From assembly GCA_938074045.1 (NCBI GenBank), contig CALJGI010000006.1, forward strand, positions 186,001-250,000: a stretch of DNA of 64,000 nucleotides, written 5' to 3'. The notes under the pieces are model-generated. The model saw nothing but the letters and a program-made list of their open reading frames with translations, searched no databases and had not been told where the DNA came from. Positions within the stretch are counted from its first letter, which is position 1; each line of letters begins with the position of its first letter. A program made the translations under genes and the position numbers. Positions 18,028 through 43,303 of this stretch are shown here, piece by piece. The DNA is from an uncultured Halieaceae bacterium. GTDB lineage: Bacteria; Pseudomonadota; Gammaproteobacteria; Pseudomonadales; Halieaceae.

Positions 18028-18894
18028 ATGAAGTTTGGGCTAGCATTTGCAAGCAGCGTGTCATTCGAAGCGGATACGGCATTGGAGATGGCCCGCTGTG
18101 CGGAAGAAGTGGGTTTTGAATCCATTTGGGGCGGCGAACATGTTATCGTTCCCAGTGTCATCGAATCGCCCTATCCCTACACAGAAGATGGCAAGATTCC
18201 GATTCCGGTGGATGCCCCCATCCCGGATCCTCTGATCTGGTTGGCTTACGTGGCGACCGCAGCGCCGACTCTGCGCCTGGGAACCTGTATCCTCATCCTG
18301 CCGCAGCGAAATCCGTTAACGCTGGCCAAGGAATTGGCTACGCTTGATGTGCTGTCTGGCGGGCGGGTGGAATTGGGAATCGGGGTTGGTTGGATGCGCG
18401 AGGAATTTGATGCACTTGGTATTCCCTGGGAGCGCCGCGGTCGCAGAAATGATGAGTATGTTGAAGCAATGCGCGTTCTCTGGTCGGGTACAGAGGTCGA
18501 GTTTCACGGCGAATTTGTCGACTTCGACAAGGTGACCTGTTCGCCCAGGCCGCCCGGTGCAAATATCCCGATTGTTGTTGGTGGGGATACCGAGATCGCG
18601 ACCAGTCGTGCGGCGAGACTCGCTGATGGCTATTTCCCGGGTTCGACCGATGTGGAAAAGTTGACTCAGTTGATTGCATCGCTGCAGGAAAAAACGCAGG
18701 CACAGGGCAGAGAAGCATCGGCGATTGAGGTCAGCGCCATCTATGGTGAGCAGATGGCAGATCCAGCTAAGGGTCTGGCACAAATGGCGGCCGCGGGGGT
18801 CGATAGAATGATGGTACCCGCATTTTTCTTTGGCGGCGAAGGTGGCCTGGATAGACTGCGGGAATTTGGCGAGAAGGTGATACAACAGAACTGA
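18028..18894 (+). CDS. Luciferase-like monooxygenase, F420-dependent class oxidoreductase
   Basis: 288 residues from ATG 18028, which has a purine-rich ribosome site (GAGGGGAGAAGGGA) just upstream; the longer frame from 17953 is not protein-like at its start. The luciferase-like fold shows in EEVGFESIWGGEHV, LRLGTCILILPQRNPLTLAKELATLD, and GGRVELGIGVGWMREEFDALG, the strong signature of the TIGR03619-type F420 family. Family members use coenzyme F420 or FMN; which one applies here is not decidable from sequence. It is convergent with the CMD/AhpD-like selenoprotein candidate, 27 bases away. Confidence 0.88.
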   Translation: MKFGLAFASSVSFEADTALEMARCAEEVGFESIWGGEHVIVPSVIESPYPYTEDGKIPIPVDAPIPDPLIWLAYVATAAPTLRLGTCILILPQRNPLTLAKELATLDVLSGGRVELGIGVGWMREEFDALGIPWERRGRRNDEYVEAMRVLWSGTEVEFHGEFVDFDKVTCSPRPPGANIPIVVGGDTEIATSRAARLADGYFPGSTDVEKLTQLIASLQEKTQAQGREASAIEVSAIYGEQMADPAKGLAQMAAAGVDRMMVPAFFFGGEGGLDRLREFGEKVIQQN

Positions 18895-18921
18895 CAGGGT
18901 TACAGGTTAACCAAAGTCCGC

Positions 18922-19470
18922 TCAGTATTTGTTGCCGGGGTCCATGACGAGATCTCGCATGTCAGCGGGTACATCGGGGGGGTCGACTATGAACAAACCC
19001 TCTTCAACCGCGGCGGGGACATCAAAAACATTGTTGAATTTGTGGATGGAATCCCAGATGCCGATGGCCACGGTCAATTCTACCACCTCGGCCTCACTGT
19101 AGTGTTCACGCAATCGGCCCATGAACTCGTCATTGACGCCGCGGGCATGATTGGAGACAAAGTCCTCGGTCAGGTCCAGCGCGACTTTAAGACGCTCGTC
19201 CATATCTGAATTCCGATGATCCAGCATCTGCAGAACCATCTCTTCAGTTAAACCGTTCTGCTGCGCCGCAGCAGATCTGGCGGGAATTCAGTAATGGCAG
19301 CCATTGATGTTGGCGGATTTCAGTCTAACCAGGTCTTTCAGAACCGGGTCCAGGCGACTGTGTGACCAGAGCAGGCCGTAGCGGTACATAAACCCCTTGA
19401 ATAGATCAGGGCAGTGCGCGTACACCCCCATAAAACCTTCCATACCACCGACTTCAGATACTCTTGGCAC
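18922..19470 (-). CDS. CMD/AhpD-like protein, probable selenoprotein (CxxU), in-frame TGA
   Basis: Read through one TGA (19288-19290), the frame gives 182 residues of the carboxymuconolactone decarboxylase/AhpD family. Before the TGA: LVRLKSANINGCHY (Cys58); after it: IPARSAAAQQNGLTEE, then MVLQMLDHRN and the helical C-terminal half. In homologues the motif is CxxC followed by xxxRSxxA, so TGA is exactly at the second Cys, giving C58-H-Y-U61. Both halves are in the same frame with normal sequence on each side and no other lesion. A perfect hairpin lies 20 nt after the TGA (separate entry). AhpD-like selenoproteins are known from marine metagenomes. The start is GTG 19470 with GAGG 8 nt upstream. 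Expected role: thiol/selenol peroxidase-like or related redox chemistry. The alternative is a point nonsense mutation of TGC or TGT. It is divergent from the ABC importer operon. Confidence 0.82.
19257..19275 (-). promoter_or_regulatory. Candidate bacterial SECIS hairpin
   Basis: On the minus strand TCTGCTGC (19275-19268) pairs perfectly with GCAGCAGA (19264-19257) across a GGC loop (19267-19265). The loop begins 20 nt after the in-frame TGA at 19288-19290. This agrees with what is known of bacterial SECIS elements: a short stem immediately downstream of UGA, a small apical loop starting with G, and a UGA-to-loop distance of roughly 16-37 nt. It also codes for RSAAAQQN, so coding constraint could contribute to the pairing. 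Confidence 0.7.
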
Positions 19471-19594
19471 GACTCAAACCTCGATTTAAGTGGTCATACT
19501 CTAGCTGCTCACTCTCTTTGGCTCAAGCTGATCTGGTGGCAATCCGGTTGATGATACCCCTATACTCGGACAGGTCCTTGCAGAGTGGCATTAC

Positions 19595-21190
19595 GTGGTA
19601 GTCGAAACACCATTGAACTCCAGGCGCTTCAATCGTCGAGTATTTCTGCGCGGTACGACGCTGGCAGGTTTGTCCCTCGCCGGGGCAATTCCTGGAATCT
19701 CCTGGGCGGTGCGCAACAATCAGCTGCATATCCGCAATTACACCGATGTTTCCTCGCTGGATCCGCCCTTTATGATATCCGGTGCTGAGGGTGTGATCGC
19801 TAACGCCATATACCAGTCATTGCTGCAGTTTCGTTCCGATGGCACCTGGAACACCCAGCTGGACGCCGCCGAGTATTTTGCGGAAATTGATGCTACGCAT
19901 TACGCGTTTCGACTGAGGCCCGGTCAGATGTTCAGCAATGGCTTTGGTGAGCTCACCGCTGATGATGTCAAATTTTCACTGGAGCGAGCTATCGACCCGA
20001 CATTGAACGCGCTTAATGCTGAAGACATGGGCCCATTCAGTCACGTAGAAGTCCAGGATAGATATTCCGGCACGATTGTTCTGCACTCACCCTATGCCGC
20101 ATTTGTTCCCGTGGCCATTGCCGGAGGTACTGCCGCGATCATGTCGCGCAAGGCAGTGAGCGCGGCAGGCGGACGGTTCGGTACAGAACCGCCATGCTGT
20201 TCAGGTCCCTATTTGTTCCGCGAGTGGCGGGCCCAGAGAAAGACGGTACTGGAACGAAATCCAGATTGGAGCGGACCCGCGGTCGCATTTGATGAAATAC
20301 ACGTGTACGCCATGAGCGACGTGAAGGCTTCCGAAACGGCCTTTGAGGCAGGCCAGCTGGATTGCGCGGAGATATCCGTGGAGTCCACAGCCCACTTTAG
20401 AAAGAATATGCCCCCTGACAGCAAACTGAAAATTTACCCGTCTGGAAGAAACTACTGGTTGGGTATGAACCAGAGTAATCCCGCGCTGCAGGATATTCGC
20501 GTGCGACAGGCGATCCAGTGGGGTGTCGATGTTAACGCCGTGGTAGAGGCGGCGTGGTTCGGTCTGGCACAGCCATCCACCGGTCCAGTACCTGCAGGTA
20601 TGTTGGGGCATCGACCGAGCTCGCATGTTCCGCCCGCGGGTGACCCTGCCAGGGCGAAGGCGCTGCTCGTCGAGGCGGGCATCTCGCTGCCGCTGCGATT
20701 GCGACTGGACGTGAACAACGATGCGCTCGAGTTGACCGCGGTACAGGTCATTCAATGGTCGCTGAAAAAAATAGGCATTGAGGTGGACATACGTGCCCAG
20801 GACAACGGCACTTTTCTTTCCATCGGGCGCGAGGATGCCGGTGATCAGTGGCAAGACATCCAGTTGTTTTTTCAGAGCTTTGTGGGTGGAGCCGACCCCT
20901 ATTATTCGCTGGTCTGGTTTGTCAGCGAACAAATGGGCCGCTGGAATTGGGAACGCTTCAGCAATGAAGAATTTGATCTATTGAATGACAAGGCTATCGC
21001 TACCACGGTTCAGGTTGAGAGAGACACATTCTATCGCCGTATGCAGGACATCATGGAAGACTCGGGTTGCTATCGTTTTGTCACCAATGGTGTGATGCCG
21101 CAGATCATCAGAAACACCATCCAGCCAGCGTTTCAACCGGACGGCTATGCACTGCTGCGGGACTTCCAGCCGACCAAGGGTGAAGTCTGA
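19595..21190 (+). CDS. Extracellular solute-binding protein, peptide/nickel ABC importer (family 5)
   Basis: 531 residues. The N-terminus has a twin-arginine-type signal (RRVFLRGTTLAGLSLAGAIP). The mature part shows the family 5 pattern: NYTDVSSLDPPFMISG, AEYFAEIDATHYAFRLRPGQ, ADDVKFSLERAIDP, and VRQAIQWGVDVNAVVEAAW. It would capture a peptide or other small ligand in the periplasm and deliver it to the two permeases. The start is GTG 19595; TTG 19610 would also keep the signal. Its TGA overlaps the next ATG by one base, so translation is probably coupled. Ligand identity is open. Confidence 0.92.
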   Translation: MVVETPLNSRRFNRRVFLRGTTLAGLSLAGAIPGISWAVRNNQLHIRNYTDVSSLDPPFMISGAEGVIANAIYQSLLQFRSDGTWNTQLDAAEYFAEIDATHYAFRLRPGQMFSNGFGELTADDVKFSLERAIDPTLNALNAEDMGPFSHVEVQDRYSGTIVLHSPYAAFVPVAIAGGTAAIMSRKAVSAAGGRFGTEPPCCSGPYLFREWRAQRKTVLERNPDWSGPAVAFDEIHVYAMSDVKASETAFEAGQLDCAEISVESTAHFRKNMPPDSKLKIYPSGRNYWLGMNQSNPALQDIRVRQAIQWGVDVNAVVEAAWFGLAQPSTGPVPAGMLGHRPSSHVPPAGDPARAKALLVEAGISLPLRLRLDVNNDALELTAVQVIQWSLKKIGIEVDIRAQDNGTFLSIGREDAGDQWQDIQLFFQSFVGGADPYYSLVWFVSEQMGRWNWERFSNEEFDLLNDKAIATTVQVERDTFYRRMQDIMEDSGCYRFVTNGVMPQIIRNTIQPAFQPDGYALLRDFQPTKGEV

Positions 21191-39503: not shown

Positions 39504-40697
39504 TTGACAGATTCAAGCACATCAGTATATGTAACCGGCGCCGCGCGAACGGCTATTGGCACCTTTGGAGGTTCTCTTAAAGGTGTGTCACCGGCGGATC
39601 TGGGAGCACACGTCACCGCAGCGGCGATAGCGCGCGCGGGTATCGACCCCGAGCTGGTGGGATCTAACGTGGTGGGGCATGTAACCCGCTCTGAATCACG
39701 GGATAGTTATATTTCCAGACGTATCGCACTGCAGGGTGGGCTGCCGGTATCTACCCAGTCGCTGACAGTTAACCGCCTATGTGGCAGTGGTCTGGAGGCC
39801 ATTGTGCTGGCAACCCAGCAGTTGCTTCTGAACGAAATTGACGTCGCCGTGGCAGGCGGTGCGGAATCGATGAGTCGCGCGGGTCATCTGATGACCACCA
39901 ACCGCTGGGGGCAACCCCTGGGTGATGGCAAGATACAGGACGAACTGATGGGTGCGTTGACCTGTCCCTTCGGCGACCACCACATGGGTATCACGGCGGA
40001 AAATCTGGCCGCGAAGTATTGCATCAGTCGGGAAGAACAGGACGAATTTGCAGCGGAGAGTCAGAGACGGGCGGCTCACGCCATCGCCGAAGGTTATTTC
40101 AAAGAGCAGATAGCACCCTATGAATTGAAATCACGAAAGGGTGTGCAACTGTTCGATACCGATGAACACGTGCGGGGAGAGACGACAACGGATGCCTTGA
40201 GTGGATTGCGTCCGGCATTCAAGCCCGATGGAGGAACGGTTACCGCGGGTAACGCCTCGGGGATTAACGACGGCGCTGCCATGGTCGTGCTGATCAATGG
40301 ACAGAAAATGGCGGAGCTGGGAGCGACACCCCTGGCTCGCATTGTTTCCTATGGTCGCTGCGGTGTACAACCGGACATCATGGGTATCGGTCCGGTGGGT
40401 GCCAGTAGCACAGCGCTGGAAAGAGCAGGTCTGACGGTAGCCGATATGGATGTGATCGAATCCAATGAAGCCTTTGCTGCTCAGGCGCTTTCCGTATCCC
40501 GAGAATTGGGTTTGCCGGCTGATCGGACCAACCCCAATGGCGGTGCCATCGCACTGGGTCATCCCATTGGCGCCAGTGGAGCCATCATTTTTATCAAGGC
40601 TATTTATGAACTGCAGCGCACCGATGGCCGCTATGGCCTGGTGACCTTGTGTATTGGCGGTGGTCAGGGAATCGCCGCTGTTATCGAGCGGATGTAG
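39504..40697 (+). CDS. Thiolase (acetyl-CoA acetyltransferase type)
   Basis: 397 residues. The acyl-binding Cys93 is in [12 protein letters not shown], the His in [12 protein letters not shown], and the second Cys in [19 protein letters not shown] is also characteristic. The start ATG/TTG at 39504 is preceded by AGGAGGAAG, a strong ribosome site. With the CoA-transferase it would cleave a 3-oxoacyl-CoA to acetyl-CoA and a shorter acyl-CoA. The gene follows scoB by 33 bases. Confidence 0.93.
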
Positions 40698-40711
40698 CAG
40701 GGACTACGAGG

Positions 40712-41551
40712 GTGTCTGCCAGACGACCTACAGGTGCACCGGCGCTGTGTTGGGGCACCTTGCAGGATGCTGATTTTGTCAGCTTTGTGGAAACCGCTGC
40801 GCGCGCCGGCTATGGCGCAGTTACCCTGAATAATATCCTCTGTGATGATGCCCGCAGCCGGGGTGTGGATATCGCCGGTGCGCTGGCGAACCACGGTCTG
40901 CTCGTCAGCAATATTGATCCATTGCCGGGGTGGGTCCCGCAACCGCTGCCCTTGCCCGGGGATGATTTTTTTTCCCGACTCTCGCGGTCCAGCGTGGAGG
41001 CGACCTTCGAACTCGCCCATTCAGTTGGCACAGACCTTATCAATGCCCCTGCCATATTTTCCGAGGCCACAGCGGAAGCCGAGTTTGTCGACGCTTTTGG
41101 TTCTCTTTGCAGTCGCGCCGCCGATGAGGGTTTGCGTGTCTGTCTGGAGTTTATGCCCATCACGCCCATAGTGGATCTTCCCACAGCAGCGCGGATCATA
41201 AAACAGGTAAATGCCAGCAATGGCGGTGTCATGCTCGATTGCTGGCATTTTCGACGTACCGGGGGAACACTGGCGGATCTCCGACTGTTACCCGCGGAGT
41301 CCTTTTATGGTGTGCAGCTGGATGATGTTCGCGCAGAACCCATGGATGATGTTGTTGAAGAAACCATGAACCACCGCCTATTACCGGGGCAGGGGGTAGG
41401 CGAAGTTGCGGATCTTGTGCGTGCGCTGAAGGAAATGGGTGTCGAAGTCGTATACGATGTTGAAATCTTCAATGTCGATATACGCAAGCTCAGCTTGTTG
41501 GAACAAGCCGAGAAAAGCCTTTCGGCGGCACAATTCGTGCTCCAGGGCTGA
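40712..41551 (+). CDS. Xylose isomerase-like TIM-barrel protein (sugar phosphate isomerase/epimerase family)
   Basis: 279 residues, starting at GTG 40712 just after the thiolase stop (ACGAGG precedes it); the frame runs back to 40649 inside the thiolase and that part is ignored. The AP-endonuclease-2 fold is visible: PALCWGTLQDADFVSFVETA, GYGAVTLNN, LRVCLEFMPI (metal Glu), VMLDCWHFRR (metal Asp and His), YGVQLDDVRAEP, and VVYDVEIFN (Glu). These are the expected divalent-metal ligands. Substrate unknown; it may isomerise or cleave an intermediate of the operon's pathway. Confidence 0.85.
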   Translation: MSARRPTGAPALCWGTLQDADFVSFVETAARAGYGAVTLNNILCDDARSRGVDIAGALANHGLLVSNIDPLPGWVPQPLPLPGDDFFSRLSRSSVEATFELAHSVGTDLINAPAIFSEATAEAEFVDAFGSLCSRAADEGLRVCLEFMPITPIVDLPTAARIIKQVNASNGGVMLDCWHFRRTGGTLADLRLLPAESFYGVQLDDVRAEPMDDVVEETMNHRLLPGQGVGEVADLVRALKEMGVEVVYDVEIFNVDIRKLSLLEQAEKSLSAAQFVLQG

Positions 41552-41572
41552 CAAGCCACAACTGGAAAACCT

Positions 41573-43303
41573 ATGAAACACTATGATCTGATCATCAGAA
41601 ACGGTGAGGTATACGACGGAACCGGCGGTCAATCCCGTGTTTGTGATGTCGCGGTAGCCGCGGGAAAGATCGCTGAGGTAGGCCCTGCCATTGAAGCCAC
41701 AGCGGATCAGACGCTGGATGCCAGCGGTAAAATCGTTACTCCCGGCTTTGTTGATGTTCACACCCACTACGACGGCCAGGCTACCTGGGACGTCCATATG
41801 AAACCGTCTTCCAATCTCGGCACTACCACGGTAATCATGGGTAATTGCGGCGTGGGGTTCGCGCCCTGTCGAAAAGAGGATCACGCAGAGCTGGTCAAGT
41901 TGATGGAGGGTGTGGAGGAAATTCCAGGGTCTATCATGGATGCCGGTTTGCCCTGGAACTGGGAGAGCTTTCCCGAATATCTGGATGCGCTTGATGAGCG
42001 GGAACGGGACATAGATATTGCCGCCTTGTTTCCCCATGCACCGCTCAGAGTTTTCGTCATGGGCGAGCGTGCATTGAATCGCGAGACGGCAAATGAAGAC
42101 GATATCCAGGCCATGCAGGCGCTGCTTAAAGAAGGAATTGAGGCTGGAGCCATGGGTCTCTCTACCTCCAGAACCCTGGTTCATCGCAGTGCCAGCGGCC
42201 ACTTTATTCCAACCTATCAGGCGGCGACAGCGGAGCTTAAGCGGCTGGGAGAATCCTTGTCCGGTGAGCGGGGCAGCGTATTGCAATTTATTTCGGACTG
42301 GGAGGATGCCGACGACGAGTTCGGTATTCTTGCAGAAACCAGCGCCAAGACCGGTGCCAAAGGTACTTTTACTCTGGTTGATGTGGGAGGCGCCCTGGAT
42401 GGTCAGAGCGCTGCCGGTCAACCCGGGCAGTGGAAAAAGCAGCTGGATCGTCTGGAAAAGGCCCAGGCTGAAGGACTGGATATCAGGGGTCAGGTGCTAT
42501 CCCGTCCCATCGGTATTCTGATGGGTTTTCCCGGCTCCATGCACAGTTTCTATCGCCGTCCCACATTCGCAGCTCTCGCGGATCTGCCCTGGGAGGAGCG
42601 CAAATCTGAGCTGAGTAAGCCAGAGGTGAAGGCCAAAATTCTGGCGGAAGAAAACGTGAACCCCCACGTTTTTGTGGAGATCTTCAATAAGCGTTTTCGC
42701 AATATGTACCCCCTGGAAGACCCTATTAACTATCTTCCCGACAGGAGTGGGTCGGTAAAGGCCTGCGCCGAAAAAGAGGGACGGGATCCTGAGGAATGGT
42801 TATACGATTTTTTCCTGGGGAACGATGGCAATAACCTGGTGTACATTCCAGCTGTAAATTTCACCGAGAATATTCCGGCCTTACTGAGACATCCCCATAC
42901 CGTATCGGCACTGGGCGACGGTGGCGCGCATGTGGGGTCAATATGCGACACCAGCGCGAACGTATATTTGCTCACGGAATGGGTGAAGACAAAGAAAGAA
43001 ATTGAGTTAGCCGATGCGATTCACATGCTCTGCCGCCAACCGGCGGAATTGTACTCTCTACTGGATCGGGGAGTGATCGCAGAAGGCATGCTGGCTGATC
43101 TCAATATTATCGACTTTGACGCCTTGCAACTGCATACACCGCACGTGGAGTATGATTTACCGGGTGGCGGAAAACGATTTTTACAGCACGCCGATGGTAT
43201 ATGCTCGACCATTAAATCCGGTGAGGTGATTTTTGCCCACAATGAGCCTACCGGGGCTTTGCCGGGAAGGCTGTTGCGCGGCAATCAGGCGGATCCACGT
43301 TAA
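41573..43303 (+). CDS. N-acyl-D-amino-acid deacylase / D-aminoacylase-type amidohydrolase
   Basis: 576 residues. The amidohydrolase metal motif is DVHTHYDGQATWD near residue 63, preceded by VTPGFVDV. GNCGVGFAP and LGDGGAHVGSICD are typical of the D-aminoacylase group. The C-terminal HVEYDLPGGGKRFLQHADG and final VIFAHNEPTGALPGRLLRG are family endings. A zinc hydrolase of an amide or cyclic amide is expected, with substrate unknown. It is the last gene of the five-gene operon and is followed by a candidate terminator. Confidence 0.9.
   Translation: MKHYDLIIRNGEVYDGTGGQSRVCDVAVAAGKIAEVGPAIEATADQTLDASGKIVTPGFVDVHTHYDGQATWDVHMKPSSNLGTTTVIMGNCGVGFAPCRKEDHAELVKLMEGVEEIPGSIMDAGLPWNWESFPEYLDALDERERDIDIAALFPHAPLRVFVMGERALNRETANEDDIQAMQALLKEGIEAGAMGLSTSRTLVHRSASGHFIPTYQAATAELKRLGESLSGERGSVLQFISDWEDADDEFGILAETSAKTGAKGTFTLVDVGGALDGQSAAGQPGQWKKQLDRLEKAQAEGLDIRGQVLSRPIGILMGFPGSMHSFYRRPTFAALADLPWEERKSELSKPEVKAKILAEENVNPHVFVEIFNKRFRNMYPLEDPINYLPDRSGSVKACAEKEGRDPEEWLYDFFLGNDGNNLVYIPAVNFTENIPALLRHPHTVSALGDGGAHVGSICDTSANVYLLTEWVKTKKEIELADAIHMLCRQPAELYSLLDRGVIAEGMLADLNIIDFDALQLHTPHVEYDLPGGGKRFLQHADGICSTIKSGEVIFAHNEPTGALPGRLLRGNQADPR

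Follow-up and report, generated by a model that had tools for sequence, protein, structure and literature searches.

The window, the whole 64,000-nt stretch analysed here, sits in contig C6 of a 4.1-Mb, 94% complete genome and carries on its minus strand a reading frame running from 19470 to 18922 that is split by one TGA (19290–19288) and contains no further stop. The frame consists of a GTG start followed by 59 codons, the TGA, 121 codons and a terminal TGA (18924–18922), and GAGG at 19479–19482 (minus strand), 8 nt before the GTG, reads as a possible ribosome-binding site. With the internal TGA translated as selenocysteine (Sec), the product has 182 residues and the motif C58-H-Y-U61, in the context GCHY-TGA-IPARSAAA. 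This arrangement of two open pieces in a single frame parted by one TGA, which the original prediction had described, was recovered to the base, as was a perfect hairpin 12 nt downstream of the TGA, in which an 8-bp stem (19275–19268 with 19264–19257, minus strand) closes a GGC loop (19267–19265). The Pfam CMD domain (PF02627) matched the protein at 42.1 bits, against a gathering cut-off of 23, over residues 21–100, a match that spans the TGA. A scan of positions 18850–19700 for promoters and terminators returned none, where 0.7 and 0.6, respectively, would be expected by chance.

Mechanical read-through of TGA codons gave 13 candidates in the window, and the C-x-x-TGA motif occurred only in the gene at 18922–19470. 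One other candidate, 40649–43303, was rejected as a Sec gene because it consists of two adjacent open reading frames (ORFs), each with its own start, and the remaining 11 were judged solely from the residues flanking the TGA. The source genome has four CMD matches, and only the window gene has a TGA inside. The same genome encodes a tRNA-Sec (64.2 bits, gathering cut-off 47), which ARAGORN also calls with anticodon tca, together with selB (392.9 bits), selA (590.6 bits) and selD (272.1 bits), each above its own cut-off; selB adjoins the tRNA gene, selA adjoins selB and selD lies elsewhere. A search for selA, selB, selC and selD, on which the prediction had staked itself, thus found all four.

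Across genomes, selA scored above its cut-off in all 29 that carry the gene. In a set of 58 related genomes that includes the window genome itself, 17 carry selA; G000 and G006, the two that hold the ortholog, are among these, which leaves 15 of the 56 relatives without the gene. Comparing 30/30 (the 29 genomes plus G000) with 15/56, and treating G006 and the genome of locus L055 as one, gave a Fisher p of 2.7e-12, a value that serves as a guide only, since it joins two differently drawn sets of genomes related by descent, which limits what it adds to the case for Sec. Across a broader sample of the order, selA occurs in 56 of 390 genomes. In the window genome, the selD gene (L053:4690–6894, contig C4, minus) is a putative fusion whose N-terminal part resembles NADH dehydrogenase and whose SelD part has CGGC, that is, Cys rather than Sec; the ORF adjoining it (L053:6882–7979, minus) resembles what we take to be the tRNA 2-selenouridine synthase MnmH/SelU. 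The putative fusion recalls the Ndh–SelD fusions described in the excerpted text of PMC2398784.

Scanning genome contigs yielded 29 homologous loci with 65–82% identity, which come from Gammaproteobacteria and Chloroflexota (Dehalococcoidia, Tepidiformaceae), going by the titles of the records; the gammaproteobacterial carriers include Candidatus Litorirhabdus singularis IMCC14734 (L055, 81% identical) and also a MAG of the K189A clade. TGA occupies the same codon in all 27 loci that cover the site, the other two (L081 and L082) starting after it, and in the alignment of these loci (A1) C58 and the TGA at codon 61 are present in 27/27 rows. P63, R65, A69 and G73, which lie after the TGA and before the window gene's next ATG, are likewise invariant in the 27 rows. 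The median pN/pS was 0.18 before the TGA and 0.25 after it (231 pairs, 22 sequences), rough values, as many pairs approach saturation at synonymous sites. Purifying selection acts on both sides of the TGA, and the selection after it, together with the invariant residues, speaks for translation through the codon. The preceding codon 60 is TAC in all 28 sequences, with the synonymous Tyr codon never used, a sign that the codon context of the UGA may be fixed.

Protein databases hold this family almost entirely as fragments. In the first protein search, the best 120 of 126 matches were 101–145 residues long and covered 49–60% of the query, corresponding to the piece after the TGA, so that the matches listed are almost all C-terminal pieces lacking the active site, much as had been anticipated for standard pipelines. 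One of the matches listed, P0109, has an unrelated start. Pieces of this size are what gene callers would also deliver for a pseudogene or a sequencing error, in which the TGA would be a nonsense mutation or a miscalled base and either fragments or nothing would be made. Such an accident would not put a TGA at this one codon in all 27 covering loci, which span two phyla, and selection after the TGA, the covarying hairpin described below and selA in 29/29 gene-bearing genomes likewise oppose it; with the 27/27 conservation and the selection after the TGA, we regard this explanation as refuted for practical purposes, its probability being close to nil.

The hairpin behaves as a conserved element of the gene. 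The original prediction had proposed 19240–19290 (minus strand) for SECIS analysis, and the stem-loop found there is conserved and covarying, with the loop GGC in all 28 rows. It lies just after the UGA, and its small apical loop containing a G agrees with the loop description of bacterial SECIS elements in the accessible part of PMC1088965; SelB is predicted to bind it. Across 23 distinct rows, three of the eight pairs change on both sides: the fourth is G-C in 12, U-A in 7 and U-G in 4, the sixth is U-A in 21 and C-G in 2, and the eighth is C-G in 22 and A-U in 1; three other pairs are constant and two change on a single side. The score for covariation, 0.226, exceeded the shuffled mean of 0.099 and was reached by none of 500 shuffles, and versions of the stem slid along the alignment scored at most 0.063. 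Against the Sec reading stand an ordinary folding energy for the hairpin by itself (z = -1.73; 10 of 200 shuffles fold equally well or better), an outer pair that fails in 6 of the 23 distinct rows and an unremarkable count of further pair types, matched by 103 of 500 shuffles. The weight given to the hairpin rests on covariation, not energy. Codons 68, 69 and 70 in the stem read GCG GCG CAG almost without exception. Their relative codon diversities are 0, 0.09 and 0, where 77 other conserved codons have a median of 0.84; just these three stem codons qualify for the comparison.

Relatives with Cys in place of Sec were recovered by a profile search, in which the best 120 of 207 matches contained a single full-length protein, P0132, 41% identical to the window protein and reading C-K-M-C at the site. 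Its relatives P0157–P0160 also carry Cys there, so that CKMC or CKLC is found across the P0132 family, and in all of these proteins the chain continues downstream, as a check of homologues proposed with the original prediction had envisaged. The TGA thus takes the place of the second Cys in a CxxC redox pair, the assignment first made from the window and now borne out by Cys both in this sister family and in relatives of known structure. No Cys form of the Sec clade itself appeared among the matches listed (best 120 of 126 and best 120 of 207). Four further records, P0161–P0164, are fragments of 108–111 residues that are 58–68% identical to the second half of P0132 and begin where gene callers restart after the Sec codon in the window family; they may be Sec forms of the P0132 family.

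These relatives bear on two other ways of reading the TGA. In one, the codon is a true stop and the halves are two proteins made from two starts, as might be suggested by the 105-residue ORF (18922–19239, minus strand) that follows the TGA with an ATG of its own and resembles the database pieces of the family. We consider this extremely unlikely: P63, R65, A69 and G73 are invariant upstream of that ATG, the Cys relatives P0132 and P0157–P0160 are single chains, and the CMD match crosses the TGA. In the other, a changed code or leaky suppression would supply Trp or Cys at the TGA, and plain read-through of this kind would explain the selection after the TGA equally well. TGA is an ordinary stop here, however, ending 16 of the 34 window ORFs of at least 300 aa and the gene itself, and the genome has tRNA-Sec, selA and selB; the sister family has Cys at the site, and the hairpin is conserved. 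Insertion of another amino acid is accordingly very improbable, and the reading we retain is that codon 61 specifies Sec.

A tree built from 88 rows groups the 20 Sec orthologs in a single clade that is sister to P0132 (branches 95 and 96, SH-aLRT). Three changes between Cys and Sec are needed on this tree, and its starred branches force three, a count that is provisional because the alignment is short (144 columns), the search was quick, with no bootstrap, and some long branches are joined. One possible reading is that the clade, L050 and L098 took up Sec separately; losses are also conceivable. All Sec rows fall within a 42-row group (support 86), in which Arg occupies the position four residues after the second Cys or Sec (+4) in 22/22 Sec rows and 18/20 Cys rows; it does so in none of the 46 rows outside. 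The L050 gene (L050:2643–3176, plus strand) is a second, distant CMD-family ORF in G006, a genome that also has an ortholog; it contains one in-frame TGA, reads CFTULNTR and is followed by a weak hairpin (-5.2 kcal/mol). A luciferase-like monooxygenase-type ORF adjoins the window gene, and a putative similar ORF adjoins the L050 gene. L098 (G177:C58:140064-140456) and G177:C58:2168-2554 are two further CMD-family copies that carry an in-frame TGA, both from one gammaproteobacterial genome; the motif of L098 is CFLUIHAR, and a strong hairpin (-16.0 kcal/mol) follows its TGA.

In the samples of its class and order the gene is rare, since across 369 class genomes and 390 order genomes the window's own gene alone scored above 80 bits (G006 belongs to neither sample). 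Two stretches of viral contigs matched the search pattern and neither encodes a relative, so no phage link was seen there. When 252 ORFs from 30 loci (the window and the 29 fetched ones) were clustered, no neighbour proved to be shared by the whole family; the most widespread cluster reached 13 loci, several loci ending early at contig ends. A cluster resembling short-chain dehydrogenases (putative) lies near the gene in 13 of the 30 loci. Rieske-type ring-hydroxylating dioxygenase ORFs, in a cluster of which one member was confirmed by Pfam, occur near it in 11 of the 30 loci (11 of the 29 fetched ones) in several arrangements (for example, L057:272–1723), and they may just reflect genomes rich in such genes.

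The predicted structure (mean pLDDT 75.7, pTM 0.73) found its best PDB match in 2gmy (E = 1.2e-5), and both sequence and predicted structure identify AhpD-like proteins as the relatives of known structure. In the portion of PMC3141380 available to us, the proton relay of Mycobacterium tuberculosis AhpD comprises Glu118, Cys130, His132, Cys133 and His137, that of PA0269 comprises Glu36, Cys48, Tyr50, Cys51 and His55, and the relay His is invariant in the family members compared there. The matching residues of the window protein are Asp46, Cys58, Tyr60, Sec61 and Arg65. The relay acid, which lies 12 residues ahead of the first Cys, is therefore present as Asp46, with Asp or Glu in relatives. The relay His, which AhpD-like enzymes have at +4, is absent, its place being taken by Arg65 in 27/27 rows of A1.

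Together, the selenocysteine machinery, the TGA in 27/27 loci, the covarying hairpin, the Cys relatives and the selection on both sides of the TGA support the proposal that the gene at 18922–19470 (minus strand) encodes a full-length, 182-residue selenoprotein of the CMD/AhpD fold, which we hold to be very probably correct. From the sequence we infer how Sec would be inserted and used. SelB, loaded with Sec-tRNA, would engage the hairpin and read UGA61 as Sec, the terminal TGA still being read as a stop. U61 would then be the attacking selenolate of the CxxU pair, reducing a hydroperoxide or some other substrate that is oxidising or electrophilic; C58 would resolve it as a selenenylsulfide, which a cellular thiol donor would in turn reduce. 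Asp/Glu46 and Tyr60 occupy the proton-relay positions of AhpD-like enzymes, and Arg65, in place of the relay His, might stabilise the selenolate. Because selenols are mostly ionised at neutral pH, the relay base may not be needed here, and Arg may keep the selenolate in place. Speaking against this idea, Cys relatives with Arg at +4 exist as well, so the Arg was not acquired solely with Sec.

We take the reduction of peroxides or disulfides as the default activity. With the relay His of AhpD-like enzymes missing, peroxidase chemistry is a guess, and no conserved neighbour indicates a substrate. The selenoprotein could instead dehalogenate organic substrates reductively, or reduce them by two electrons in some other way, in the manner of the CMD-fold debrominase Bmp8 (6ohi, 6ohj), which is among both the structure and the sequence matches, aligns its CMYC with the CxxU and has no His at +4. 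Animal deiodinases use Sec, and some relatives lie near catabolic genes, namely the Rieske-type and putative short-chain dehydrogenase ORFs noted above. The similarity to Bmp8 is weak, however, at 34.7 bits, below 2gmy (58.2 bits) and PA0269 (51.7 bits), and no neighbour is common to the family; we judge this activity unlikely, though by some way the most serious of the alternatives.

On a broader view, the clade is Sec-only in everything searched, across Gammaproteobacteria and Chloroflexota, with Sec and an invariant Arg replacing the Cys and His of the AhpD relay, and Cys and Sec would have been exchanged at least three times in the sampled tree, always on the side with Arg at +4. We tentatively suggest, as an idea with more against it than for it, that the Arg primes the site for selenium, perhaps for a substrate other than peroxide. 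An Arg for the relay His beside Sec asks what the relay does once the thiol is a selenol. The family is also a clear case of annotation cutting at a recoded UGA, since records among the matches listed lack the active site, and a model for the clade would correct the C-terminal-piece records.

No model in NCBIfam 20.0 scored above its cut-off. The best, NF053654 (YciW-related (seleno)protein), matched residues 16–153 at 67.6 bits against a cut-off of 310, so the window protein is a non-member; TIGR01926 gave 28.8 against 81.8, NF041047 gave 15.3 against 110 and NF041238 was absent at E <= 1. PA0269 (2ijc, 2o4d, 7xw1) and Atu0492 (2gmy) share the fold and the CxxC pair with the window protein and differ from it in having Cys for Sec and His at +4 rather than Arg65, with 22–27% identity in the structure matches; the relay residues excerpted for PA0269 place a Tyr beside its second Cys, as Tyr60 in the window protein. 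Bmp8 has the CMD fold and lacks the His, and differs in its Cys for Sec and in its ligand, a brominated pyrrole according to the PDB title. The P0132 family is closer, with similar length, the CxxC-x3-R arrangement and the KFNNAFD motif, and differs in having Cys at the Sec site.

CxxU selenoproteins of this fold have been in print since 2005, so the kind is already known. According to the accessible portions of these reports, the Sargasso Sea survey of that year listed 27 AhpD-like (COG2128) and 4 CMD-domain (Pfam02627) CxxU selenoproteins (PMC1088965), the 2008 GOS survey listed 299 AhpD-like 1 and 70 AhpD-like 2 selenoproteins (PMC2398784), and two reviews, among them PMC13188914, also list such families. 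Of the claim to a new selenoprotein, the selenoprotein part therefore stands and the novelty, as to kind, does not. At most the window clade is new: we found no literature on this clade in particular in open-licence papers, which does not prove its absence, and the Sargasso and GOS sets, compared by description only, may already include it. The original prediction's statement that AhpD-like selenoproteins occur in marine metagenomes is borne out by these two surveys, whose AhpD-like and CMD-domain selenoproteins, as far as the excerpts describe them, share with the window protein the fold, a CxxU motif with Sec in the second position, a hairpin after the UGA and a marine setting.
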